Source: Draconibacterium sediminis (GTDB lineage: Bacteria > Bacteroidota > Bacteroidia > Bacteroidales > Prolixibacteraceae). Taken from it: DNA of 64,000 nucleotides. Location: assembly GCF_000949475.1 (NCBI RefSeq), contig NZ_JRHC01000001.1:186001-250000 (forward strand), written 5' to 3'. Below, piece by piece: positions 36,136 to 52,251 of this stretch. Under the pieces are notes generated by a model that had not been told where the DNA came from, searched no databases, and saw nothing but the letters and a program-made list of their open reading frames with translations. Numbering within the stretch: position 1 is the first letter of the stretch; each line of letters starts with the position of its first letter. A program made the translations under genes and the position numbers.

Positions 36136-38922
36136 ATGACGAAGAAACTATCGATCCTATTTCTATTCGTACTGTTATTCTCCTTCTTTAGTCTTTCGTC
36201 AAAAGAAAAATACAAAATTGGATTTTCGCAATGCACCACAGGCGATGACTGGCGCAAATCGATGCACCGCGAAATGATGATAGAACTGGCCTTTTTCCCC
36301 GATTTTGAACTGGTTATAAAAGATGCCAACGACAATAGCGACCAACAAATAAACGACATCAGGCAGTTATTGGAAGAAAAAATTGACCTGTTGATTGTTT
36401 CTCCCAACGAATCGGAACCAATAACACCAATTGTTGAAGAGGTATATAATAGCGGAATTCCTGTTATTGTTATCGACAGGCAAATAGCCTCGGAGGCTTA
36501 TACTGCCTATATTGGCGCAAACAATTATTTAATTGGAAAAGAAGCCGGAGATTATGCGGTAAAATTGTTAAACGGCAAAGGTAAAATCGTTGAAATTACC
36601 GGGTTGCAAGGATCCTCGCCTGCAATTAACAGGCACAATGGTTTTATGGAAGTGATTTCGCAATATCCCGAAATTGAACTGGTTGCATCGGAATCGGGCA
36701 AGTGGAATTACAGCGACAGTAAAACGGTAATGCAAAATTTCGTTAACCAAAAACTGAACTTCGATCTCATTTTCTCGCATAACGACAGGATTGCCAGAGC
36801 AGCCTACGAAGTAATTGCCGCCAATAATATCAGCGATAAATTTATCCTGGGTATCGATGGATTATTAGGAGATGACGGTGGAATAGAAGATGTGATCGAT
36901 GGTAAAATTGATGCTACTTTTCTTTATCCTACAGGTGGAGCCGAAGCCATTCAACTGGCTGATAAAATTCTAAACAAACAGCCTTTTGAGCGTATCAACA
37001 TTCTTGAAACCGTGGTTATTGATAACAACAATGCCAAGATATTAAAACTTCAATACGAGGCTGTTGACGACCTGCAGGGAAAAATTGAAAACCAAAAATC
37101 TGTTCTTGAAAACCAGATTGCCCGCTTTAAAAGTCAACGGAGCTTTTTAATCGTTGTACTGGTTTTACTGGCAGCTATTGTTATTTTGGTTATTCAAACC
37201 TTCAGAGCTTACCAGAACAAACGTGCGGCCAACGAAAAACTGGAGCATCAAAAACTAGAAATAGAAAAAAGAAACCGGGAAATTATAAAACAAAGAGACC
37301 AACTTATTGAAGTTTCGGAAAAACTGGAAGAGGCTACACAAACCAAACTTCGTTTTTTTACCAATATGTCGCATGAGTTCAGAACGCCGCTTACGCTCAT
37401 CATTGGTCCGCTAGAGGATATGATCGAATCAACAGATATTCCGGAGCGTTTTAAGAAGCAGGTTTCCATGATGCACCAGAATTCACTTCGCCTGTTGCAC
37501 ATGATTAATCAACTGATGGATTTCAGGAAAATAGAAAACAATAAAATGCAGTTGCAGGCCGCCAGTTACGACATTGTTGGTTTTCTGAAAGAAATTGTGA
37601 TGCCCTTTTATGATCTGGCGGAGAAGAAGCATATCTCTCTTGTTTTTGAAGCTGAAAAAAACCATTTAAATGCCTGGTTCGACATGAATAAACTTGATAA
37701 AGTTATATTCAACCTGCTCTCAAATGCCATTAAATTCACACCAGTTAATGGCACTATACGAATCACGCTAAAAGTAATTAAACCTTTAACACAGAAGATT
37801 TGGGATGAAGAAGTGGAAATTAAAGTTTCCGACAACGGTAACGGAATTCCAACGGATCAGATAGAGCATATTTTTGATCGTTTTTTCCAGGCAGAAAGCT
37901 CACACGGCTTTATGGGAACAGGTTTGGGACTTTCGCTTTCGAAAGAATTTGTCGATCTGCACCACGGAGAGATCGAGGTTAAAAGCAACATTGGAGAAGG
38001 AACAACTTTTACTATTCATTTGCCACTTGGAAATACCCATCTTAGCGCATCCGAAAAAATTGAAACACCTGTAAACGATACGAAAAAGAAGCAGATTCAA
38101 CGAAACAACGAAATTCATATCAATCCGGTTTTAAATACCGGAGAAAAGAATATTGAAATAAATTTTGAGGAAAAACCGACACTTCTTTTGGTTGAAGACG
38201 AGAACGATGTTCGCGAATATATAAAAGACAGTTTGCAAGATCATTATCATATTCTGGAAGCAGAAAATGGAAAGCTGGCACTGGAAATCATCCGTGATGA
38301 TGAACCCGACCTTATTGTGAGCGATATTATGATGCCCGAAATGGATGGGCTGGAGCTTACCCGCACCTTAAAAACCGATTTAAAAACCTGCCATATTCCA
38401 ATCATTCTTCTTACCGCAAAAGCTTCGCAGGAGCAGAAATTTGAAGGATTGGAAGAAGGAGCCGACTCCTACATTCCGAAACCGTTTAACAGCCGTCATC
38501 TGCAAATCAGGGTGAAAAAATTGCTTGAACTGAGAAGGAAAATGCAGGAACGCTACAAAGTTCAGCTACTTATTTCAGAAGACGACAAAGATCTTTCGCG
38601 CCTCGATCGGAAGTTTCTGAACAAAATCTCGCAAATAGTGGAAGAACACCGCGACAAGGAGGAGTTTTCGGTGGAAGAACTAAGTCAGATGTTGGGATTA
38701 TCGCGCGTGCATGTTTACCGGAAAATTAAAAAACTTACAGGAATGTCGGTTAGCGAATTTGTACGCTCAGTAAAATTGAAACTCTCGTTAAACCTGATAA
38801 AAAACAGCGGAAAAACCATGGCTGAAATTGCCTACGAAGTTGGTTTTTCATCGCCATCGTATTTCACAAAATGTTTTAAAGACCAGTTTGGAATATCGCC
38901 CAGTGAATACGCGAAAAAGTGA
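36136..38922 (+). CDS. Hybrid two-component system sensor/regulator (HTCS) with a periplasmic sugar-binding domain
   Basis: The product, about 928 residues, starts at the ATG at 36136 (MTKKLSILFLF). Domain order is: signal; periplasmic-binding-protein type 1 sensor like RbsB (about 25-315, with IGFSQCTTGDDWRKSM and VIVIDRQIASEAYTAYIGANN); membrane helix (about 340-360); coiled coil; HisKA with His413 (SHEFRTPLTLIIGP); HATPase (DNGNGIP, GTGLGLSL); receiver with Asp730 (IVSDIMMPEMDG); and AraC HTH (MLGLSRVHVYRKIKKLTG). This layout matches the fructose-sensing HTCS of Bacteroides fructan loci, so periplasmic fructose is the likely inducer. Confidence 0.93.
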   Translation: MTKKLSILFLFVLLFSFFSLSSKEKYKIGFSQCTTGDDWRKSMHREMMIELAFFPDFELVIKDANDNSDQQINDIRQLLEEKIDLLIVSPNESEPITPIVEEVYNSGIPVIVIDRQIASEAYTAYIGANNYLIGKEAGDYAVKLLNGKGKIVEITGLQGSSPAINRHNGFMEVISQYPEIELVASESGKWNYSDSKTVMQNFVNQKLNFDLIFSHNDRIARAAYEVIAANNISDKFILGIDGLLGDDGGIEDVIDGKIDATFLYPTGGAEAIQLADKILNKQPFERINILETVVIDNNNAKILKLQYEAVDDLQGKIENQKSVLENQIARFKSQRSFLIVVLVLLAAIVILVIQTFRAYQNKRAANEKLEHQKLEIEKRNREIIKQRDQLIEVSEKLEEATQTKLRFFTNMSHEFRTPLTLIIGPLEDMIESTDIPERFKKQVSMMHQNSLRLLHMINQLMDFRKIENNKMQLQAASYDIVGFLKEIVMPFYDLAEKKHISLVFEAEKNHLNAWFDMNKLDKVIFNLLSNAIKFTPVNGTIRITLKVIKPLTQKIWDEEVEIKVSDNGNGIPTDQIEHIFDRFFQAESSHGFMGTGLGLSLSKEFVDLHHGEIEVKSNIGEGTTFTIHLPLGNTHLSASEKIETPVNDTKKKQIQRNNEIHINPVLNTGEKNIEINFEEKPTLLLVEDENDVREYIKDSLQDHYHILEAENGKLALEIIRDDEPDLIVSDIMMPEMDGLELTRTLKTDLKTCHIPIILLTAKASQEQKFEGLEEGADSYIPKPFNSRHLQIRVKKLLELRRKMQERYKVQLLISEDDKDLSRLDRKFLNKISQIVEEHRDKEEFSVEELSQMLGLSRVHVYRKIKKLTGMSVSEFVRSVKLKLSLNLIKNSGKTMAEIAYEVGFSSPSYFTKCFKDQFGISPSEYAKK

Positions 38923-38947
38923 ACACTTAAGGCACTAATTTTACCGG

Positions 38948-40408
38948 CTATTTTCTGCGATCTTCCAGCTTTCGCAAACGGCTGCGCAATGCCGACCGGC
39001 TGATTCCAAGATATTCGGCAACTGCGGTTTTGGCGCCATCAAAACGTTTCATGGCTTTGGCTACAATTTCTACCTCCAGTTCCTCAATTGAAAAACCCTC
39101 TTCGGGGAGCACTACTTCGCCCGGCCGGATGGGAATCCCTTCCACTTTTTCGGGCACACTGGCTGTATTCTCAACAAACAAATGCGCCAGATGCCAGGGT
39201 TGAAGCTGCTCATCGTCGAACAACAACACCACGCGTTCAATGGCATTTTGCAGCTCGCGAACATTGCCCGGCCATTCGTATTTTTCCAGGATAGAACCGG
39301 CCGGTTTAGAAATAAATTTAAAGGCACGGTTGCGTCGTTGCGAGTACATTTCGAGAAAATACTGTGCCAGCGGTAGAATCTCCTCTGTCTTTTCCCTGAG
39401 TGGTTTTAACAGAATATTTCCCGTTTCGATGCGGTAGAACAGATCCGAGCGAAATTTATTCTGGTCGATCAGGGCTTTTAACTTTCGGTTGGTGGCAAAA
39501 ACAAAACGCACATCCAGTTTTATCAGCTGACTGCCTCCCACGCGGTAAAGTTCGCGCTGCTGCAACACCCGTAAAAGTTTGGCCTGCATTTCCAAAGGCA
39601 GTTCGCCAATCTCATCTAAAAATAAGGTGCCACCCTGTGCCTGCTCCATTTTTCCGATATATCCGCCAGCGCGTGCCCCGGTAAAAGCTCCCGGCTCGTA
39701 CCCAAACAATTCACTTTCAAAAAGTTGCTCCGAGATTGCTGCACAGTTAACCGGAATAAAAGGCCCCGGACTTTCGAGCCCTTCCCCGAAATGGATTAGC
39801 CGGGCCACCATTTCCTTGCCGGTACCGGTTTCGCCCTGTATCAGCACCGGGATATCCCTGCTTTTATGAAACTTCAGCGACAGGTCTACCACCTGTTTCA
39901 TATGTTTGGAGAACACCGCCATTTTGCCCGATTCCTGAATGTCGCGAATGGTATTTTGCAAGGCCCGAATCCGTTGCGTAGATGCATTTACTTCCTTGCC
40001 CATCTTTTGTACCGATTCTTTCAGGTCTTTGTTTTCATTGATCAATTGGTAGCGCTCCTGAATCTTGGAAACGGTCATCGCCAGTTCATCGATATTTACA
40101 GGCTTTAAAAGGTAATCGGCCGCGCCCAGGCGCAGTGCTTCAATAGAATGGGTAATTTCCGAAAAACCGGTCATGAGGATAACCGCGATTCCGGGGTAAT
40201 CCTGTTTTACGCGTTTCAGCAATTCCAAACCACTTATTCCGGGCATTTTTATATCCGAAATAATCAATTCGAATTTATCTTTTTGCAGAATTTCCAGGGC
40301 CGCCGTTCCGTCTTCGGCATCGGTAACATCCAGCTTCAGGTCTTCCACCAGAAATTCAACAATTGCTTCCCTGCTTAATTGGTCATCTTCAACTACCAGT
40401 ACTTTCAT
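38948..40408 (-). CDS. Sigma-54-dependent response regulator (NtrC family)
   Basis: The 486-residue regulator has a receiver (VEDDQ at 7-11, phospho-acceptor Asp52 in [10 protein letters not shown]), and an AAA+ domain with Walker A GETGTGKE, an intact GAFTGA loop ([10 protein letters not shown]) and Walker [12 protein letters not shown] Fis-type HTH ([24 protein letters not shown]) ends the protein. It starts 20 bp inside the 3' end of the kinase gene, so the two are coupled. It lies downstream of the lactate operon on the same strand and is its likely activator. Confidence 0.92.
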
Positions 40409-42830
40409 TTTCAGTGTCTTTAGTAAATGTTATCACAAACCGAACACCATCTCCTTCCCGGTTCTCGTAACGAATGTCGCCATTCATTTTCGTAACAAAT
40501 GTTTTTACAATGGCCAGTCCCAGTCCCGTTCCGCCTTTGCTTTTTTTGGTTGAATAAAAAGGATCGAACAACTGCTCGCCGATCGAACTTTCAATCCCGG
40601 CACCATTGTCTTCCAGAATCAGTTCTATCTGCTTTTCCTTTTTAACGGTACGAACGTTTATTTCCTTTTTTTCGCGTTCCACCTCATCGAGCGCATGAAT
40701 GGAATTCACCACCAGGTTGATAACCACCTGTTCAATCTGAATTTTATTTCCTTTTAAATACAACTCGCCGGCAGCCAGTTTCTGGGTAGCCACAATGCCG
40801 TGATTCCGAATTTGCCGGCGCAGCAAATCGAGCGCATTTTTTACGATCGTGTTTAAATCAACCAGCTGAAGTTCATCCGAATCGGGAACTGGATTAACCC
40901 AGTAATTGCGCATGTGGCTTACAATTTCATCGATGCGTTCAGTACCTTTCGAAATGGCTTCCAGTTTGCGAACAATATAACTTCCGGTCTCGGTTCCTTC
41001 GCGCCTCATTTTCCGCAGCACGGTATCGGTAGTGATTTTTATGGCGTTAAGCGGCTGGTTAATTTCGTGCGTAATGCCCCCGGTTATTACCCCAATGGAG
41101 GCCAAACGCGAAGTACGCTCCATAACACGCACCGCCTCGGCATGTTGTTTCTCCATGCTCAAAAACTGGTTCATCTGGAAGTTCCGCTCCCAGGCGTTGG
41201 CAATTACCCGCACCAGTGTTAAAAGCAGGCGTTGTTCGTCCTTTTCCCAAACATGTGGCTCCTGGAAAGCAAAACCGGCCATCCCGTTTATTTTATCCAC
41301 CACTTTTATCGGAATCAGCATCACCGAACGGATACCCCGATTTTCAAAAAATTGCCTTTCGCCTTCGCTTAGCTCCGAAAGATCGGGGCTTACAATAGTT
41401 TCATTTTTAAGAATCCGTGTGATGATATTTTGCATCGCCTCGGTTCGGCTACTGTCCATTTCTTCTATACCTTCTCCTTTTTCCGAAGTCATTGAACCGA
41501 TTATCTGGCCAATCTTATCGTCTTCGGAAAAACTGTACAAGCTTACTTTTCCCACATGCGTTGACCCCGTAATTGCATTCAAAACCTTATCGATCACTTG
41601 TGTGAAATCGTTGGTGGAATTCAGGTAGGTAACGATTTCGGCCATTAGCCGCTGTTGTTTAAATGCCAGCGTTAAATGCTCCTGTTTTAAGAGCAACAAC
41701 TTCTCGGCCTTTTTACGGCGCTGAACCGACCGGCTTAAAACCAGGATAATAACAAAAGCCACTACCAGCACCAAAAGCACCACTACGATAGTTGTTTTGT
41801 TGAGGGAATAAAAATCCATCGGTTTATTGATGATCCGGGCCTCGGCAGGAAGTTTGCTCTTATCGATGTTATACTTTTTCAGCAGATTCTGATCGAACAT
41901 GTAAAGCCCCTGCAAATCTTCTTTTATGGGAATTTCCGATGTTTTCTCGCCATGCAAAATGCGTAATCCCATTAATGCCGCTTCCTTCCCGTGATCAATA
42001 CCGCGGATTAGCTTTCCGCCAACGATACCGCGGTTTAAAAAGAACTCCCAGCTGGAATAAACCGGAACTTTTGCATTTTCAGCCACCAGCCTCGATTCTT
42101 CTTTGTACGATATAAATTCCTGGTTTTTATCCTTGTTGAAAGTGAGCATCAGGATTAGGTCGGGCGAATTAACACGGGCCACTTCTTCAGCCAGTTCATC
42201 AAAACTTACATTATCGATAAAACGAAGTTTGTTTCGGTAATTTTCGGGTAGCGCATCCAGCATCATCCGGTTAATTTTGGCTGTGGTGGTGTACAAATCA
42301 TTCACCACATAAATGAGCCCCGATCCGGGATGCAGTTTTTCCATGATATCGATGGTTGCCTTAAAATCGGGGCGTTCGGTTATCCCGGTAATCATTCCAT
42401 CGTTGATATCGCGCTCATCGATTTGCTGGTTAATTCCACAAAAAACAACCGGAATATTCTTGTAAATTTCCTCGCGGTTATCGAGCAAAAATTTCAACGC
42501 ATCATCGTCGACTGTTATAATCAGATCAAATTGATTTTGTTGCAGACGTTCGCGGTAAAATCGTTCAATCCGAGAAAAATAAAGCGAATCGGTGTATCTT
42601 TTTGTATCGAGGTATTCATAAAAAAGCTCCACTTCTTCATCGTGCGCCGACATAATTTCCTGTATTCCGCGCGACACATTATCCGACCAATCCAGCCCCT
42701 GGTGATACGAATGCAGCACCAAGATTTTATGCGACGGCTGTTCGTAAGCAAATACCGATACCGTAAAAATCAAAAATAGGGGAAGCAGTAAACAACCGAA
42801 GAACATCTTCTTTATTTGTGATTTTTTCAT
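40389..42830 (-). CDS. Sensor histidine kinase with ABC-substrate-binding-like periplasmic domain and GAF
   Basis: The 813-residue kinase has a signal or first membrane segment ([19 protein letters not shown]) and a periplasmic domain of the PF04392 type (about 30-330, [18 protein letters not shown] and [11 protein letters not shown]). A membrane helix [20 protein letters not shown] follows near 350, then a GAF-like domain (about 400-565), HisKA with His588 ([16 protein letters not shown]) and HATPase ([30 protein letters not shown]). It overlaps the regulator gene. Ligand binding in the periplasm is expected, and lactate or a related acid is a guess from context. Confidence 0.9.
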
Positions 42831-42950
42831 AAGCCTATTCCCGTCCCTAATTTTCTTTTAAGATAAACAATTAAATATAAGTTTTTCTTTCAATCGTAAT
42901 GAAATAAATCAGAAGGAGTTGGAGATGCCAACTATGCTCCATAACGAAAA

Positions 42951-42976
42951 CAGGGGAAACTACAAGTAGTCTCCCC
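42951..42976 (-). terminator. Hairpin after the dehydrogenase-porin gene
   Basis: AGGGGAAACTAC and GTAGTCTCCCCT pair with one mismatch, giving an 11-12 bp stem about 33 bp downstream of the stop at 43009. The T-run is weak (TGTTTTCG on the minus strand), so it may only partly separate the permease/dehydrogenase genes from the kinase pair. Confidence 0.5.
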
Positions 42977-43008
42977 TCCCTCCTCAACTCAATACCTCTG
43001 CCGGAATT

Positions 43009-46000
43009 CTAGAATGAATATTTCACATGTAATTGCAAGCGGGTGTTTCCCACTTTCTCCACATCCGTTACATTCAAACCGGAATCGGCTGTGCCGTATC
43101 CTGCATAAGTTTGGTTTAATTCCAACATCACTTTAATTGCCTGGTTTCCCATTATTACTCTTGGCGATATTCGCGCAACATAATCAATGTTAGTGCCCCG
43201 GGCATAAACCTCTCCGCCATCGGCAATTGGGTCGCTGCTACCCAAGTTGTTCGCCATACCTGCGAAAAGGCCAAAATTCACCTTCGAAAAGCGCGTCATT
43301 ACTTCTGTCCACCACGAAAAAGTATTCACCGGTGTATATTTAAAACTGTTTGTTTCTGTATTGATTTCGCTAACACCGTAACCTCCAAGCATGGTTAAAT
43401 CGGTGCCGTTTTGTGCATAAATACCCTGAAGTTTAAAAGTCATCGATTTGCTTTTTAGAACGGTATATGCAATAGCATGATAGGTTCTGAGTGATTCATC
43501 CACATAATTGCCGTCGCTGTTTACAAAGCGCGGAACAAGGCTTTTGGTTCCGGCTACTAAACCAATCAGGCTTTTGCCCGGCGCACCGTATTCCAGGTGC
43601 ACATCAAATTCAGGAATTGACGACTGGCGAATATAGACAGAGCTGAGTCCTTGCGGCCCGAGCGATTTGTAATCCAGCTGCGATAAAGCGGTTAATGATC
43701 CAACAAATTTGTCAGAAAACTTGCGCGTTACCCTGATTTGCGGATTTCGTGCCAGCGTTGAAATTGGCGCTGCTGCTCCCCACGACGAAACCTCGGGGTA
43801 GCACGACAAAACAAACATCGGGCTCCAGTACTGGCCAATCATAATGCTTGTTTTTTCATAGTCGAGTTTGGCCATGGCGTGACGCAGACGTACCGTGCCG
43901 ATTTTATCGTTTGCATTTCCAACAAAATCGAATTCAATAAGACTGCTTAAATCTCCGCCCCACAATTTGGAGCCTGAAGATTTTGCGCGTAGGCGGCTGT
44001 GCAAAGCAAAAAAGTTAAAGTTGCCTTTTGCGTTAATATCAACTCCATTATCATCGTAAACAATAGGCGCCGGATATAAAACCACATCCCCGTCGCGGGC
44101 CGAAACTACCTGCCGGCTATCGAAAACCGCCTCGGTAGATACAAATCCGCCTACTTCTACTTTTATCTTGTCCTGTGCATTCACCAAAGATGTTAACGAC
44201 AGCAGTAAAATCATAACGGCTGTTGCCATTGCAGTTTTGGTTTTCTCTTTAGCAACAGGTTTTGTTTCCTTTTTAACCAATTCTTTTTTGGGTGCCGGTT
44301 CGGTAACCTGATCGACCAGATAAACAATTGATTTGTGGGAAATTCCACTGTTTTTCGACAAACCAATCTCACAGGTTCTTGAAGTGGAGTACCCTTGTTT
44401 TACGTCATCAGGCAGCTGAATCTTCAAATTCCGAAGACCATGTTCGTTTAATTCGGGATACGAAAAACCCCTGTCGCCGGCAAAACCACAACAGTTGGTT
44501 TCGGGCTGAACCACTTTTTCAGCACATAACTTCGCCAGATCGACCAAACGGGCGTCCATTCCCATTTTTTTCATACTGCAAACCGCAAATACCGAAACGG
44601 GCTCAGCCACCGGAGTAAAACTTAATTCATCTTTTAAATATTCCCAAATGAACTCTACCGGTTCGTACAATTTTAAGCGGTCTTTCATATTTTCTTTCAT
44701 GGTAAACAGGCATGGGCTCATATCGCATAAAACCGGATATTTGCCGTATTGGCTGGCACTTTTCAACGCTTCTTCCAGTTCATTCGATTTTCTCAAGCCC
44801 TGCTCTTTAAATCCTTTGCTGGAATAGGACATTCCACAACAAAGACTATTCAACTTCTCGGGATAGATAATTTCGTATCCTGCCTTTTTTATCAGGCGTT
44901 CCATAACAGCAGTCAGCTGTTCTTCTCCTTTTTGATCTTTTGATTTTCCCATCGATCGGTTGATACACGACGGGAAGTAAACCACCTTTTTAGGATTTGC
45001 CGAATCGACCTTACCGGGCACTATTTTTTTCGCACCCGATGGCATGTACTCGTTCCAAAGCGGCACTTTTTTGCCCGAAAGTTTATGAATACCGTTTGAG
45101 GCAGCGTTCATAAAACCGGTTCCCAGCACCGAATGTGCAAGATTTACAACCGACAGCGAACCACGCATAACTTTAGTGGTTAAGGCCATATGATCGGCCA
45201 GCCAGTCGGCCACTTTGTTTTGCTTTGGCGTATGTTTTTGATAACGAATTTCCTTGATCAGTTTTCCGGTATCGATTTTCACAGGGCAACTTAAGGCACA
45301 AAGCCCATCGGTAGCGCAGGTTTCGTCGCCCGAATAATTGTACGAATTTTCGAGGGCCGCCAATTCATGAACTTTCTCGCCGCTTACCCGCAAACGTGAA
45401 ATCTCGCGGTAAACCGCCACACGCTGGCGCGGCGACAAGGTTAGTTCGTTGGCCACGCACGAGGGTTCGCAAAAACCACACTCAATACATTTGTCCACCT
45501 TTTCTGATGCAGCCGGAAGCGGTTTCAGATTTTTCAGATGCGATTGCGAATCATCGTTCAGGATAACACCCGGATTTAGCAAATAATGAGGATCAAAAAT
45601 CTGCTTGATCTTTTTCATCAGATCGTAGGCTTCCTTTCCCCATTCGTGCTCAACATAAGGGGCCATGTTCCTTCCCGTTCCGTGTTCCGCCTTTAAAGCG
45701 CCGTCGTATTTATCAACTACCAGTTTCACCAGGTCGTCCATAAAATTCTGATAGCGGGTTACTTCTTCTTCACTGGCAAAATCCTGTGTAAACACAAAGT
45801 GCAGGTTTCCTTCCAGCGCATGACCAAAAATCACGGCTTCATCATAACCGTATGTTACAAAAAGAGCCTGCAAATCGAGCGAGGCCTGTGCCAGTTTTGG
45901 TACCGGGAAAGTCACGTCTTCGATAATTACGGTTGTGCCGGTTTCTCGCATGGCACCTACCGACGGGAATAAACCTTTTCTGATTTTCCACAAGGCCATA

Positions 46001-47112
46001 AATTCAGACAGCACATCGGTAAATGATACCGGAATTTCGGCAGGAATATCGCTTATCGTTTCTAAAATCTCATCAATCTGTTCAGCCAGAACTGTTGGCT
46101 CTGATGCACGGGTTTCCACCAGAATGGCACTGGCTCCTTCCGACAAATCTTTCAGGTAAGCCGGCACTCCGTCCTGATCTTCAACCGAACGAAGACCTGC
46201 CCGGTCAATCAGTTCGACCGCAGCCACCGGGGCACTTTTTAACAACGAAACCGCGTTACATGCTTTTTCAATATCGGGGAAAACCATCAGTGAACTAGCT
46301 TTGAATTTGTGTTCGATTACCGTTTTGTAGGTGATCTCGGCAATAAAACCCAAAGTTCCTTCAGAGCCAATCATAATGTGTTCGATCACATCAAAGGGAT
46401 CGGTAAAATCGACCAGCGCATTCAGGCTGTAACCCGTTGTATTTTTCATTTTGAACTTGTCGCGGATACGCTGCGCCAAAGGCTCGTTGGCATTAACCGA
46501 TTCCACCAGTTCGGTTAGGTTAGCCAAAAGTCCGGCATGTGTTTCCCTGAAAGCTTCTTTACTTTTTTCATCACCGGTGTCGAGCAACGTTCCGTCGTGG
46601 AAAACAATTTTCATGCTTTCAACCGTTTTGTAAGAGTTTTCGGATGTACCGCAACACATTCCGCTGGCGTTGTTGGCAGCAATTCCGCCAATCTGAGCCG
46701 CATTTATCGATGCCGGATCAGGACCGATTTTACGTCCGTATTTTGCTAAAATAGCATTGGCTCGTGCACCGATAATTCCGGGTTGCAAACGAATACTCAG
46801 GCCGTTCGCCAGTACTTCGTGCTTTTGCCAGTGAGCGCCGGCAATCACCAGTATCGAATCGGTGATGGCCTGACCTGAAAGACTGGTTCCGCCAGCACGG
46901 AAAGTAACCGGTAGTTTTCGTTTTTGGGCTTCCTTTAATATCGTTGACACTTCGTTTTCGTCCCTGGCCTTGATTACCAGCTTTGGAATCAGGCGATAAA
47001 AACTCGCATCGGTTCCAAATGCCAGCGTGTGCATCGGATCGTGAAACATTCGGTTCTCATCGATCACCGACAATAACGAATCGTAGAGTGATTTATATTC
47101 TCCGCTAAGCAT
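43009..47112 (-). CDS. FAD/FeS D-lactate dehydrogenase-like protein fused in frame to an outer-membrane porin
   Basis: The frame is 1367 codons without a stop. Residues 1 to about 940 are a complete FAD-linked dehydrogenase of the GlcD/Dld type: FAD-binding region with RAGGTSLSGQAI and GGIAANNASGMCCG, FAD-oxidase C region with EHGTGRNMAPYVEHEWG, two 4Fe-4S motifs (CIECGFCEPSC from Cys542; CATDGLCALSCP), and two CCG domains (LCCGMSYSS, NCCGFAGDRGF). A K/P-rich linker (about 943-960) leads to a signal-peptide-like MATAVMILLLSLTSLVNAQ from Met962. About 385 further residues form a porin-like barrel ending LQLHVKYSF. The parts belong to different compartments, so internal initiation at 44229 or a recently lost stop is possible. 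It is 18 bp downstream of the lactate permease gene. Confidence 0.85.
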   Translation of the reverse strand: MLSGEYKSLYDSLLSVIDENRMFHDPMHTLAFGTDASFYRLIPKLVIKARDENEVSTILKEAQKRKLPVTFRAGGTSLSGQAITDSILVIAGAHWQKHEVLANGLSIRLQPGIIGARANAILAKYGRKIGPDPASINAAQIGGIAANNASGMCCGTSENSYKTVESMKIVFHDGTLLDTGDEKSKEAFRETHAGLLANLTELVESVNANEPLAQRIRDKFKMKNTTGYSLNALVDFTDPFDVIEHIMIGSEGTLGFIAEITYKTVIEHKFKASSLMVFPDIEKACNAVSLLKSAPVAAVELIDRAGLRSVEDQDGVPAYLKDLSEGASAILVETRASEPTVLAEQIDEILETISDIPAEIPVSFTDVLSEFMALWKIRKGLFPSVGAMRETGTTVIIEDVTFPVPKLAQASLDLQALFVTYGYDEAVIFGHALEGNLHFVFTQDFASEEEVTRYQNFMDDLVKLVVDKYDGALKAEHGTGRNMAPYVEHEWGKEAYDLMKKIKQIFDPHYLLNPGVILNDDSQSHLKNLKPLPAASEKVDKCIECGFCEPSCVANELTLSPRQRVAVYREISRLRVSGEKVHELAALENSYNYSGDETCATDGLCALSCPVKIDTGKLIKEIRYQKHTPKQNKVADWLADHMALTTKVMRGSLSVVNLAHSVLGTGFMNAASNGIHKLSGKKVPLWNEYMPSGAKKIVPGKVDSANPKKVVYFPSCINRSMGKSKDQKGEEQLTAVMERLIKKAGYEIIYPEKLNSLCCGMSYSSKGFKEQGLRKSNELEEALKSASQYGKYPVLCDMSPCLFTMKENMKDRLKLYEPVEFIWEYLKDELSFTPVAEPVSVFAVCSMKKMGMDARLVDLAKLCAEKVVQPETNCCGFAGDRGFSYPELNEHGLRNLKIQLPDDVKQGYSTSRTCEIGLSKNSGISHKSIVYLVDQVTEPAPKKELVKKETKPVAKEKTKTAMATAVMILLLSLTSLVNAQDKIKVEVGGFVSTEAVFDSRQVVSARDGDVVLYPAPIVYDDNGVDINAKGNFNFFALHSRLRAKSSGSKLWGGDLSSLIEFDFVGNANDKIGTVRLRHAMAKLDYEKTSIMIGQYWSPMFVLSCYPEVSSWGAAAPISTLARNPQIRVTRKFSDKFVGSLTALSQLDYKSLGPQGLSSVYIRQSSIPEFDVHLEYGAPGKSLIGLVAGTKSLVPRFVNSDGNYVDESLRTYHAIAYTVLKSKSMTFKLQGIYAQNGTDLTMLGGYGVSEINTETNSFKYTPVNTFSWWTEVMTRFSKVNFGLFAGMANNLGSSDPIADGGEVYARGTNIDYVARISPRVIMGNQAIKVMLELNQTYAGYGTADSGLNVTDVEKVGNTRLQLHVKYSF

Positions 47113-47130
47113 AATTTCTTTGTTTAAATT

Positions 47131-48786
47131 TTAAAGTGGTAATGGATTTAGCCCCATAAACAGAACGGATCCGAGAATCAGCAGAATGATCAGATAATAG
47201 GCAAACGAGGGCACCGAATTGGTGCGAATTATCCTTCCTTCCGACCCGATACAACCAACAGTAGCCGACACGGCCACCACGTTGTTCACACAAATCATAT
47301 TTCCAACACCTGCTCCAATTCCCTGCATAGCCAGAATCAGAATTTGCGGTATGCCCAGCAAGGTTGCTGTTTCGAACTGGAACGAAGCAAACAGAATATT
47401 TGAAACCGTTGCTGAACCCGACATAAAAGCACCTAAAATGGCAATTAGTGGTGCAAAAACCGGGTAAGCGTGTCCCGAGATAGATGCGGTTGTACGCGCC
47501 ATTTCGGTGAGCATACTTTCCAAACCTGCGCCGTTTGTTCCCGAGTTTAGCATGATCTGCACCAAAGCAACCCCGCTGAATAAAGCTATTGCAGCTCCTT
47601 TTATTTGATTGAAAGTCATTTTCCAGGCTGCCTTTACCTCTTTCATCTTCATTTTATGAAAAACGTGGGTGAACAACGCTACCACAATAAAGGGCAGCGT
47701 GCCCGGTAAATACGCCCATTTTAAGGCATAATCAAGTTTATCTATTCCGAATAAATTATTGATTTGTATGGTTTGTGCTGCCAAAATTCCTTTTAATCCA
47801 AATTGCGGAATACGTGTCACAACCAGGATGACCGCGATGAGCAAATAAGGTGACCATGCACGAAGCAGTGACATTTTTGCTTCGCCAACAGTTCCGGTGT
47901 CGGTATTCGAAAACCAGCTTTTTGCCCACTTCGATTCGTGCGGAAAGTCCCAAGTTTTTTTAGGAACAAGAAAACCTTTTTTAGCTGCCACAATTATAAT
48001 TCCCAAACCAATAAACGATCCCACCAAACTGGGTAGTTCGGGACCGAACACCACAGCGATTAGTGCGTAAGGAACCATAAATGCCAGGCCGGCAAATAAG
48101 GCAAAAGGTGCAGCCTGCAAAGCAGGTTTAATCGATTTCTCCTTACCAAAAATCTGGGTCATAATCATTAAACCCAGCAAAGGAAGCAGCGTACCAGCCA
48201 CCACATTGGGCAATGCCACCCATTTGGTCAGCATCATTTGAAACACCGTCGGATCGGCTCCAACCTGTTGCAAATTGGTTTCGAGCGTGCTCATTGCGCC
48301 AAAAATGGGCGTTCCAACTGCGCCAAACGGAACAGGGACACTGTTAAATATCAGCGCCACGATTGCCGCAGCCAGCGGAGGGAAACCCAGTCCGACCAGC
48401 AGTGGCCCTGCCAAAGCCGCAGGAGTACCGAAACCGGCAGCGCCCTCGATAAATGCACCGAACATATAACCGATGATGATCGCCTGAATCCGGCGATCGC
48501 GGGTGATTCCCTGAAACCCGTTGTTAATGGATGCCATGGCACCCGATATTTTTAATGTATTCAGAATCAGAATGGCTCCGAATATGATGATCAGAATGTC
48601 CATTGCTTTTAAGACACCGAAAAAAGAATATGCGGTAACACTCAGAATATCGATCTTCCAATAGACCAATGCTATTAAAACAGCCAGGCCCCAGGATAAC
48701 GGAAGCGCCTTTTTTGCTCCCCAGTTAAATCCCGCCATCAATACGATTGTTACTACAATTGGTAAAAAAGCCAATAACGCGTTCAT
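47131..48786 (-). CDS. lctP: L-lactate permease family transporter
   Basis: The product, about 551 residues from the ATG at 48786 ([20 protein letters not shown]), has about twelve to fourteen membrane helices and the LctP family sequences [39 protein letters not shown], and [28 protein letters not shown] near the C-terminus. It imports lactate (and in relatives glycolate) with protons. An upstream Met at 48819 gives an unlikely [11 protein letters not shown] leader. The gene leads the operon that continues with the dehydrogenase-porin frame. Confidence 0.92.
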
Positions 48787-48845
48787 AAGTTTTAGATTTA
48801 AATTAAACATCAAAGCCATCTTGGTTTACGACGACGCGACCCTTA

Positions 48846-48861
48846 GCCAATTGAAATGCCA
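48846..48861 (-). promoter_or_regulatory. Possible sigma-54 promoter for the lactate operon
   Basis: On the minus strand this reads TGGCATTTCAATTGGC. The -24 part is good, and TTG is at the right place for -12, but the conserved GC is GG at exact spacing. It lies 60 bp before the permease start. The nearby NtrC-type regulator makes it worth noting, and the mismatch keeps confidence low. Confidence 0.3.
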
Positions 48862-48975
48862 AAAAATAGAGAAGCTGATTTTTTATCGAAAATGAAAACA
48901 CTTAATATCTGGTATTCTGATCATTACGGTTTATGTTTTTTGATTTTGGGGGAGAATTGCCTACTGAATAAAAAC

Positions 48976-49085
48976 GGGCCATTTGGAACATGCGGGCCAT
49001 TTGGAACGCGATAATCGGGCGAATGTGCCATTTGGAACGGGGTGGAATTTTAAAAATAGGGACTCTTTTAATGTACATTTAGAAC
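48976..49085. repeat. GCCATTTGGAAC direct-repeat cluster (possible IS-end remnant)
   Basis: GGGCCATTTGGAAC occurs at 48976-48989 and 48994-49007, GTGCCATTTGGAAC at 49025-49038, and a weaker GTACATTTAGAAC at 49073-49085. Multiple short repeats of this kind occur at the ends of IS21-like elements. No transposase frame is nearby, so this may be a solo end. Confidence 0.55.
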
Positions 49086-49178
49086 ACAGAGGGTACCTTT
49101 TAAAAAAACCAAACTTGAAAATTCAGAAAGGAAATTGAAATAAAGTACAATTATAAGTGCCACGTTTTATGCCAAACA

Positions 49179-49211
49179 AAAAGCGCTTAAATCAATGATC
49201 TAAGCGCTTTT
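49179..49211. terminator. Strong hairpin terminator beside the tRNA fragment
   Basis: AAAAGCGCTTA (49179-49189) pairs perfectly with TAAGCGCTTTT (49201-49211). It lies immediately 3' of the tRNA-like fragment when read on the minus strand, as a native tRNA terminator would. Confidence 0.7.
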
Positions 49212-49233
49212 AATGTTTTTTGGTATTTCACCA

Positions 49234-49257
49234 AGTACCCGGGGCGGGAATCGAACC
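49234..49257 (-). other. tRNA 3'-end fragment, likely attachment site of an integrated element
   Basis: On the minus strand this reads GGTTCGATTCCCGC followed by CCCGGGTA and CT: the T-loop, the 3' half of the T-stem and the acceptor 3' strand of a tRNA. The 5' half of the T-stem does not pair (CGTGG opposite CCCGC), and no anticodon arm or D-arm follows. A short tRNA 3' end without a body is what site-specific integration leaves at the distal end of an element. The amino-acid identity cannot be told. Confidence 0.55.
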
Positions 49258-49381
49258 ACGCCCGTAATACGCTTATAATCAATGTGTTATTTTAATGCAA
49301 ATCGTGAGGTCTCGTTTTTGTCTCTCACTGGTTCATTTTCAATATTTTATCGTTTAAAAATACGAAATTGTAACCACTTCT

Positions 49382-50662
49382 TCAAATGTTGATTAATTCC
49401 CACGGATGTAGATGAAGAATACCTTCATAGTTCGAATATTTCATATCATCAAGAGAAACAACATACTTTTCATAGTTATCTTTTATCTGTAAAAGGTTGC
49501 CAAATTCCCTGTTTATAACATTTTCGTTGTTTAATAAATAGGCTACCTGAATATAAATTATCCTATCAGCCTTTTGGGCAATAAAATCAATCTCAAGATT
49601 ATTTAATACTCCAACCTGCACTTCATATCCCAAACGTTTTAGTTGCAGATAAACGTAATTTTCAAGGTTATATCCGACATCTGTCGGTAAAAATCCAAAC
49701 AAGAAATTTTTAAAAGCTAAATCATTCAGATAATATTTACAGGCACCTCCGAGTACTTGTTTCCCTCGTAAATTAAAACGATCTGCCTGATGAAAAATAA
49801 AGGCATCAGTTAAATACTGCACATAACTTGAAACAGTTTCGTAATTTGTTTTTTTCTGTTTGCTTTTAAAATAATTGATAATATTACTTATCGCTGTCAG
49901 GTTTCCGATATTTACCGCAAGGAACTTAAATAGTTCTTCCAGTAATGGTAGATCCTTAATTTTATGTCTGTCCAGTATATCGCGTAAAATGACAGTATTT
50001 TTTAAACTGGCTATGTAATTACGTTTAAGTTCTTCTGAATTAAGATGAAACAATTCAGGTAAACCTCCGGTTTTAAGATATTCAAGAAAACTTTCCTTTC
50101 CCAGAGTTAATTCCTTTACATCCAAAAATTCGGAGTAATCAAAAGGTAAAATCTCAAATTCAACATATCTACCTGATAGTAATGTTGCTAATTCTCCTGA
50201 TAATAAAGTAGAGTTTGAGCCGGAAACAAATAGCTCGTAATCCTGTGTAAAATCCTGAGAATATGAATTAACAAAGGTTTCCCAACCTTCAATGTTTTGC
50301 ACTTCATCAAGAAATATATAGATTTTTCCTTCTACCTGAAGTTGTGCTCGATAAAAGGAAAACAATTCATCTAAGTCAGTAGCTTCTTGTATTTCATCAA
50401 ATGCAATAAATTCCTTATTCAAAAAGAACAAATTCTTTGGATCAACATTCTTATTCGTAATAAGATAATTCATTATTTGTCGTAATAGATAACTCTTTCC
50501 GGATCGACGTTGACCTACCAGTACTTTTACTAAACGAGTATCCAAAAATCCAGTTATTTTTTCAAGATATTGCTTACGCTCATAACCGATCTGTATTGTT
50601 TGTCCTTCCCAGGCATTATATCTTTTTGTTTTCTCAAATACATTTGCAATTTTTTCAGCCAT
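49382..50662 (-). CDS. AAA+ ATPase with DUF4143 domain
   Basis: The 426-residue protein has an AAA_14-type ATPase core with Walker A VGQRRSGKSYLLRQ, Walker B IYIFLDEVQNIEGWE and sensor-like LFVSGSNSTLLSGELATLLSGRY. The C-terminal DUF4143 region (about 210-400) includes TGGLPELFHL and a restriction-nuclease-like end GVLNNLEIDFIAQK. These proteins are common in Bacteroidota and archaea. Their role is unknown, and some are suspected of defence or regulatory roles. It is the first gene of the island next to the tRNA fragment. Paired palindromes lie directly upstream. Confidence 0.85.
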   Translation of the reverse strand: MAEKIANVFEKTKRYNAWEGQTIQIGYERKQYLEKITGFLDTRLVKVLVGQRRSGKSYLLRQIMNYLITNKNVDPKNLFFLNKEFIAFDEIQEATDLDELFSFYRAQLQVEGKIYIFLDEVQNIEGWETFVNSYSQDFTQDYELFVSGSNSTLLSGELATLLSGRYVEFEILPFDYSEFLDVKELTLGKESFLEYLKTGGLPELFHLNSEELKRNYIASLKNTVILRDILDRHKIKDLPLLEELFKFLAVNIGNLTAISNIINYFKSKQKKTNYETVSSYVQYLTDAFIFHQADRFNLRGKQVLGGACKYYLNDLAFKNFLFGFLPTDVGYNLENYVYLQLKRLGYEVQVGVLNNLEIDFIAQKADRIIYIQVAYLLNNENVINREFGNLLQIKDNYEKYVVSLDDMKYSNYEGILHLHPWELINI

Positions 50663-51351: not shown

Positions 51352-52251
51352 CTACATCCGGTACCCTCTGTTCTTTTTCTTTATGGGCTTTATGCGTTGA
51401 TAGGTTTCCTTTCTACTTTGTCTTCTTTCATCTTTCTCTGCCTCAAGCAGACCTTCTTTTATCAACTGATAAAAAGCCTGATCCAGTGATGGATTATCAA
51501 TAACAGCAAAATATTCCTGCCTCTTATTCTCATCCAGCTTGTACTTAATCTTTGAATAGCTGAATTGCCTGTCAATTTTGGAACCGTTAAATTTTAAATC
51601 ATTTTTAGTAAACGAAATCCCCTGAACAACATTTGTATTTCCCCTGCATTTGTAGTTTACTGTTATCCCCTCTTTGTTTAGTTTAGCTTCCAGTTCGTCC
51701 ATATCTTTACATTTGGGCACAAGCTCTTTCAGGCAGCTATAAATCTCATATTTTGTTTTGTCCGGTTCTTTTAGCCGGTGAACGTTTACATTTTCCTTTC
51801 CTTTGGCAAAATACAAGTCATTCTCTCGTGTAAGTTCTTTACAGATCTTTTCACTACGGTAACGATCGTTTTTATTGGATATCGTTTTCCCAAGATTGTT
51901 GACTCTGTTAAACACAATATGAATATGAGGATGCTCCTTATCGTAATGCCGGGCGATGATAAACTGGGTATTTACAATTCCCATTCTGTTTAGATAATCA
52001 TCTGCAATCTTTAGAAGAAACTCATTATTCAACTTTGCTTTATCCTGAACAGAGAAATCCAGGGAAATATGACCTACCGGTTTGCTGACCCGCGAATTGA
52101 GTTCTGTTTGAGCAACAAAACTTTTTGTAATCGAATTCGTGTTTTTCAAACGTACGCCCTCTCCCATTAACAATTCAGCTGCTTTCTTTGGAGCAAGGAT
52201 ATAATTTACTGCCCCGGCGAAGTCTCCACCTGTTGTAATCTTGGCAATCAT
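51352..52251 (-). CDS. Relaxase / mobilization nuclease (MobA-like)
   Basis: The 299-residue protein starts MIAKITTGGDFAGAVNYIL, typical of Bacteroidota MobP-type relaxases. It has motif I Tyr in VNYIL, motif III with the HUH-like EHPHIHIVFNRV (about 107-118) and a basic C-terminus (RRQSRKETYQRIKPIKKKN). It nicks one strand at oriT and pilots it during conjugal mobilization. At about 300 residues it is close to the short relaxases of mobilizable elements. It overlaps the mobC stop by four bases. Confidence 0.88.
   Translation of the reverse strand: MIAKITTGGDFAGAVNYILAPKKAAELLMGEGVRLKNTNSITKSFVAQTELNSRVSKPVGHISLDFSVQDKAKLNNEFLLKIADDYLNRMGIVNTQFIIARHYDKEHPHIHIVFNRVNNLGKTISNKNDRYRSEKICKELTRENDLYFAKGKENVNVHRLKEPDKTKYEIYSCLKELVPKCKDMDELEAKLNKEGITVNYKCRGNTNVVQGISFTKNDLKFNGSKIDRQFSYSKIKYKLDENKRQEYFAVIDNPSLDQAFYQLIKEGLLEAEKDERRQSRKETYQRIKPIKKKNRGYRM

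Follow-up and report, generated by a model that had tools for sequence, protein, structure and literature searches.

We examined a 64,000-nucleotide stretch of the Draconibacterium sediminis genome (contig NZ_JRHC01000001.1, positions 186,001 to 250,000; hereafter the window) and within it a gene on the reverse strand (43009-47112) that joins a dehydrogenase to a porin. The frame opens with an ATG at 47112, ends with a stop codon at 43009-43011 and spans 4104 nucleotides, or 1367 codons plus the stop, without an internal stop, so the uninterrupted 1367-codon frame described in the initial annotation of the sequence was recovered. Translation also placed residue 962 at the ATG at 44229, as that annotation had it. 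The presence of a dehydrogenase and a porin in a single frame is real, and the gene probably encodes an enzyme of the cell interior, likely lactate-oxidising, together with an outer-membrane pore. The two parts recognised earlier, a flavin adenine dinucleotide (FAD)/4Fe-4S/CCG dehydrogenase followed by a porin barrel, were found again, and with them stands the puzzle of one frame for two cell compartments.

Within the dehydrogenase half, Pfam identified FAD_binding_4 (residues 43-179), FAD-oxidase_C (269-516), a 4Fe-4S dicluster domain (approximately 539-613) and CCG (710-805). Pfam calls only the one best CCG stretch, and a second (CSMKKMG...NCCGFAGDRG) was read by eye at approximately 839-930. 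FAD_binding_4, FAD-oxidase_C and the 4Fe-4S dicluster were carried on one chain, the combination that marks the Dld-II type, and the Dld-II domain make-up given in the accessible text of PMC4481167 is that of this half. The best solved-structure matches were a glycolate oxidase (9qgz, E = 1.3e-26), LctD (7qh2) and D-lactate dehydrogenases, and no listed NCBIfam equivalog cut-off was reached. By domain content, residues 1 to ~940 are a Dld-II-type FAD/4Fe-4S/CCG dehydrogenase, with lactate as the putative substrate. The window genome also encodes a second, distant FAD dehydrogenase (L002, G000:C16:384629-386212; 980-aa frame, 26% identity), and matches resembling it were present in many same-genus genomes.

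The porin half had no Pfam or NCBIfam match. When searched with a 32-row profile it matched the DcaP structure 6eus_A at E = 6.6e-12 (only E = 0.045 with the single sequence). The AlphaFold2 model was a beta barrel with a mean predicted local distance difference test (pLDDT) score of 90.7, the first strand starting at residue 5 of the mature porin, and its best Foldseek match was again 6eus_A (E = 1.2e-20, template modelling scores 0.70/0.78). Profile and modelled fold both identify residues 980-1367 as a DcaP-like porin, and the neighbouring genes suggest lactate as its substrate. A role in carboxylate uptake would fit, since the accessible text of PMC12338516 reports that Acinetobacter baumannii DcaP3 is required for growth on di- and tri-carboxylates.

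Distribution and descent of the fused frame

The fused frame was observed in four genomes: the window, Draconibacterium mangrovi (L034/G009), Prolixibacteraceae JC049 (L033/G148) and Bacteroidales MAG.147 (L035/L126, G909), the last of these 5'-truncated. Identity between the window and JC049 was 76% for the dehydrogenase and 66% for the porin. A comparison of the junction among relatives, which the initial annotation had proposed, was carried out on 80 distinct dehydrogenase loci, two of which were not counted (L007, broken over several frames, and L043, cut by a contig end). In the 78 loci with a readable domain end, 4 ran on in frame while 74 stopped within 19 codons. A porin was adjacent in 9 distinct loci of the 80, and 4 of these 9 were fused; the counts cover collected loci only, and the flank of L140 was too short to show a porin.

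The search of the family covered 140 genomes, 51 with the dehydrogenase, and 3 of the 51 were fused with open frames of 1362-1373 codons, the next-longest dehydrogenase frame being 1012 codons (some rows were partial). At the level of the order (393 genomes) 1 of 41 was fused, namely the window itself, and at that of the class (395 genomes) 1 of 7, again the window. Either half was matched at E = 1e-60 or better in 70 of the 395 genomes searched across the phylum, where three open frames exceeded 1300 codons and the window's alone was fused. The other two, L139 (G1128; 1377 codons) and L148 (G921; 1433 codons), had seemed fused by open-frame length and were rejected because a stop separates the parts; L148 also lacked a porin match.

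Unfused dehydrogenase-porin neighbours were found in STCSWMC_58 (L045), G268 (L083/L134), a Lutibacter metagenome-assembled genome (L042), G1128 (L139/L146) and G1166 (L141/L149). The lctP-dehydrogenase-porin clusters among them (L045, L134, L146, L042, L149) have the same gene content and order as the window, but the dehydrogenase and porin keep their own stop and start: an ATGA stop/start overlap in STCSWMC_58, which likely reflects translational coupling, one in-frame TGA in L146, and separate codons elsewhere (the porin of L149 is cut by a contig end). At approximately 4311-4400 of L139, and at the same place in L146, the two proteins lie in the same frame with a single TGA between them, possibly an intermediate toward fusion. 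In another locus (L133 6598-9409, G051) a dehydrogenase near the same permease and porin was split over three frames with stops, and is either a decayed gene or the product of assembly errors.

Both halves are under purifying selection, and look functional since the join. The ratio of nonsynonymous to synonymous substitution rates (dN/dS) between the window and D. mangrovi was 0.051 for the dehydrogenase and 0.018 for the mature porin. Between JC049 and MAG.147 the dehydrogenase gave a ratio of uncorrected proportions (pN/pS) of 0.088 and the porin a dN/dS of 0.028, but with pS at 0.743, near saturation. In the same pair, 11 linker codons showed 3, 1 and 9 changes at codon positions 1, 2 and 3, respectively. 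An assembly error, or a fresh lost-stop mutation of no biological meaning, would agree with the stop found here in 74 of the 78 homologous loci. We rejected sequencing error and a fresh lost stop on the ground that the frame is common to four separate assemblies; with JC049 and MAG.147 well diverged and dN/dS low in both halves, the chance that the frame is meaningless is very slight.

In the trees, unfused STCSWMC_58 was sister to the pair formed by the window and D. mangrovi and not an outgroup to the fused rows, with support of 97/99 for the dehydrogenase, 99/98 for the three joined proteins and 80/86 for the porin alone. Approximately unbiased (AU) tests disfavoured a grouping of all fused rows for the dehydrogenase (p = 0.015) and for the three joined proteins (p = 0.008), while for the porin alone this grouping was not rejected (p = 0.144). 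These tests used six rows with one long branch (L083), were run after the first tree had been seen, and had no permease row for MAG.147; L041 was left out of the first tree owing to a stop within its reading. The topology implies that fusion either occurred twice or occurred once and was later reversed.

The junction and its predicted processing

Judged by composition and motif, each fused junction contained a positive n-region, a hydrophobic core and a cleavage site. The junctions (slash at the predicted cut) read ...TKPVAKEKTKTAMATAVMILLLSLTSLVNA/QDK in the window, ...TKPIKQKAQKVALSIVILLMAGLGIQSAQA/QDK in JC049 and ...TKPLKKKAAKVALSMAFIILAGLGIHSAQA/QEK in MAG.147; the cleavage contexts (...NA/QDK, ...AQA/QDK, ...AQA/QEK) are preserved, and all four fused rows retain the motif. 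Glutamine directly after the cut fits the Bacteroidetes Q-rule as set out in the accessible text of PMC5837995. Counted from the dehydrogenase end, the linker had a net charge of +3 to +5 in all four rows. While the initial annotation had proposed a typical signal peptide starting at Met962, we found the signal peptide but not a clean start: the segment from Met962, MATAVMILLLSLTSLVNA, contains no lysine or arginine, and the positive residues (KEKTKTA) lie upstream of it, within the linker. For comparison, lysine or arginine stood between the methionine and the core in 28 of the 30 unfused porin homologues whose start could be assigned when scored by script, and in 30 of 30 once L013 and L028 were read by eye (the list omits L027, which had no ATG in the stretch, and copies with an identical stretch).

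We consider it probable from these features that the fused gene encodes a precursor of two proteins, in which cleavage of an internal signal peptide just before Gln980 leaves the enzyme tail-anchored. The dehydrogenase half, which has no export signal at its start, would fold in the cytosol, and the lysine-rich linker with the hydrophobic stretch that follows would act as an internal Sec signal peptide oriented N-in, C-out. Signal peptidase I, cutting before Gln980 according to the Q-rule, would free the mature DcaP-like porin for the outer membrane, and the spent signal peptide would stay attached to the C terminus of the dehydrogenase and hold it in the membrane beside the quinone pool. Enzyme and porin would be made 1:1 within a lactate-uptake-and-oxidation cassette, and further porin, made free of the enzyme, could come from starts at Met962. 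We infer each of these events, from one-chain translation through cleavage and tail-anchoring to extra porin from internal starts.

Judging by start codons, JC049 makes the clearest case for a precursor. The stretch from the end of its dehydrogenase to the hydrophobic core lacks an ATG, and its only in-frame ATG, GTG or TTG codons near the junction are GTG932, in the dehydrogenase tail, and ATG955, within the core. Their start contexts ranked in the 3rd and 2nd percentiles, respectively, of 58 genes, by a rough score since the 58 include homologues from three relatives and the scored genes themselves.

An alternative is that a stop was lost, that most porin arises from an in-frame start (Met962 in the window, TTG802 in MAG.147, GTG932 in JC049), and that the fusion is a tolerated by-product. 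Several observations favour this alternative and weigh against a precursor. The context of ATG 44229 is good, with a score of 4.29 that ranks in the 53rd percentile of the 58 starts and the 98th of 376 internal ATGs, so the window species could produce porin separately from the enzyme. TTG802 of MAG.147 would yield a textbook signal peptide (LKKKAAKVALSMAF...), with its context at the 7th percentile, and the unfused relative STCSWMC_58 has the ATGA overlap, a sign of likely translational coupling. A low score is also compatible with a start, because the permease's own first ATG, at 48819, scores just -4.36 (3rd percentile). At the position of the MAG.147 TTG (LKKKAAK), JC049 has ATC (IKQKAQK), a rare initiator in table 11, and both could be remnants of a former ATG. 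A-rich (Kozak-like) starts occur in Bacteroidota. Other points unfavourable to a precursor are of a different kind. The fusion is not essential, since it is absent from STCSWMC_58, the nearest genome but for D. mangrovi; production in a 1:1 ratio would be unusual for a porin; and an AlphaFold2 model of the joined region from a four-row alignment was uninformative (pLDDT 31) and was not used. The linker (pN/pS 0.63, 11 codons) and the signal peptide (0.69, 20 codons) showed little constraint when the window was compared with JC049, and the window and D. mangrovi linkers differed by just two changes, one of each kind. Such weak constraint is expected if charge and hydrophobicity alone matter, or if the joins are independent.

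Against predominant internal initiation, JC049 offers only GTG932 or the ATC, the signal peptide from Met962 lacks the lysine or arginine of the unfused homologues, and ribosomes that finish the dehydrogenase all continue into the porin, so the fusion would be made anyway. On balance we regard this alternative as unlikely, although it is a serious competitor to the precursor.

A third possibility, that dehydrogenase and barrel stay covalently joined and act as one protein, could draw on the uninterrupted frame common to four genomes. However, about 5 residues separate the hydrophobic segment from the first strand in the model, too short a span to reach the outer membrane, and an uncleaved barrel, with its signal segment in the inner membrane, presumably could not get there; a working porin would have to be cut free or internally started. 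With the cleavage motif also kept in every fused row, we think a stable chimera very improbable. The initial annotation had offered two explanations, a lost stop with internal initiation or a true chimera. A plain lost stop is unlikely because diverged lineages share the frame, both halves are under purifying selection and JC049 has no ATG before the signal peptide; a true chimera is also unlikely, given the position of the first strand; and internal initiation is kept as a rival. The best reading appears to lie between the two, with one precursor giving two proteins.

A second frame of this layout was observed in a distant member of the Bacteroidota (L147 2709-5513, forward strand; G1143), where 934 codons join a chemoreceptor, with sCache_2 (E = 3.4e-23) and MCPsignal (E = 7.6e-45) domains, to a porin of the family described above (40% identity) at the junction ...SFAPGKKSWALRSFLILLFATFGLAKA/QTV. 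From codon 506 to the hydrophobic core, which starts at approximately codon 537, it contains no ATG, GTG or TTG, and its layout counts in favour of the precursor reading. We suggest tentatively, at somewhat less than even chances, that DcaP-like porins in Bacteroidota repeatedly became the C-terminal cargo of cytosol-facing proteins, once or twice of a lactate dehydrogenase and once of a chemoreceptor. The upstream protein would supply the charged n-region of an internal signal peptide, and cleavage by signal peptidase I would yield either a sensor in the inner membrane or a tail-anchored enzyme, each accompanied in fixed proportion by a pore in the outer membrane for the corresponding nutrient. 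The chemoreceptor-porin frame was found in 1 of 67 genomes searched, L147's own, and so in one assembly.

Gene neighbourhood and comparison with known systems

Features of the fused gene and its surroundings are collected in Table 1. The cassette of LctP, dehydrogenase, porin, sensor kinase and NtrC-type regulator was the same in the window, D. mangrovi, JC049 and STCSWMC_58, and reordered in L134; LctP adjoined the dehydrogenase in these five loci (window, L034, L033, L045, L134) and in L042, L146 and L149. The unit of lactate permease, dehydrogenase and porin that the initial annotation had suggested is therefore supported, and a conserved two-component pair downstream can be added to it.

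Table 1. Positions in the window of the parts of the fused gene and of the neighbouring cassette features.
Feature	Coordinates	Strand	Basis or remark
Dehydrogenase half, residues 1 to ~940	44293..47112	-	FAD_binding_4, FAD-oxidase_C, 4Fe-4S dicluster domain, CCG; unfused homologues end near residue 940
Lysine-rich linker, residues 941-961	44230..44292	-	putative positive n-region of internal signal peptide
Internal signal peptide, h- and c-region, residues 962-979 (MATAVMILLLSLTSLVNA)	44176..44229	-	predicted cleavage before Gln980
Mature DcaP-like porin, residues 980-1367, C-terminal end ...KYSF	43012..44175	-	profile, structure model
LctP-family lactate permease, directly upstream of fused gene	47131..48819	-	PF02652 E = 1.3e-115; TIGR00795 above cut-off
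Sensor histidine kinase, conserved cassette; ABC_sub_bind (presumably periplasmic) and GAF domains	40389..42830	-	
NtrC-type response regulator, conserved cassette; sigma-54 interaction domain	38948..40408	-	
Three GTTCCAAATGGC(A/C)C sites upstream of permease	48976..49038	-	candidate regulator-binding sites

The pattern GTTCCAAATGGC(A/C)C, which was written after the sites had been seen, had 3 matches against a mean of 0.00 in 100 shuffles, and the shorter core TTCCAAATGG had 3 against a shuffle mean of 0.39, with 1 of the 100 shuffles reaching 3. Related palindrome-like sites were seen by eye upstream of lctP in JC049, D. mangrovi and STCSWMC_58, and all may be binding sites of the NtrC-type regulator. 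A good sigma-54 -24/-12 element upstream of lctP was present only in JC049 (GGCACCGGTATTGC); the 600 bases scanned in the window held a single GG-N10-GC match, far upstream of lctP, and D. mangrovi and STCSWMC_58 had no such element there. Rfam returned nothing at gathering scores for window positions 38000-50000, and no tRNA was found in 48500-49600. A relaxase/mobilisation-like open reading frame was noted by eye near the cassette (51352-52251, reverse strand). The cassette may be mobile, because a full-length dehydrogenase was observed in just 2 of 37 same-genus genomes searched, the window's included. Among viral contigs, 8 stretches matched a search pattern and none was confirmed.

Like the window enzyme, the Dld-II-type D-lactate dehydrogenase of Shewanella oneidensis carries FAD_binding_4, FAD-oxidase_C, 4Fe-4S dicluster and CCG on a single chain (accessible text of PMC4481167). 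The window enzyme differs in continuing in frame into a porin, and its substrate and stereospecificity are predictions. The Shewanella gene also adjoins a lactate permease. The porin shares its barrel fold and family-level sequence similarity with DcaP of A. baumannii (6eus). DcaP is exported as a protein in its own right, whereas the window porin forms the C-terminal part of an enzyme's frame; its putative substrate is a monocarboxylate, lactate, as against the di- and tri-carboxylates of DcaP3.

To our knowledge, bacteria seldom encode in a single frame two proteins destined for different compartments, and our literature search found no paper on a bacterial precursor of this kind and no open FbcH paper. 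The fusion is unusual since its products would end in different compartments, and with the join observed here and the cutting that we propose it holds more interest than a lost stop. If the precursor is processed in this way, an export signal can function behind 940 residues of cytosolic protein, its remnant then serving as a useful membrane anchor, and the cell can couple the number of uptake pores to that of enzymes. The proposal should be directly testable because one fused genome, that of D. mangrovi, belongs to a named strain, GM2-18. The nearest parallel is FbcH of Bradyrhizobium japonicum, a cytochrome b/c1 precursor whose internal signal sequence is the site of cleavage into two products. 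In both cases an internal signal peptide would lie between two proteins encoded by one gene; for the window its cleavage is a prediction. However, both FbcH products stay in the inner membrane as subunits of a single complex, and the part encoded first is itself a membrane protein, whereas the window frame places a large soluble enzyme before an outer-membrane barrel.

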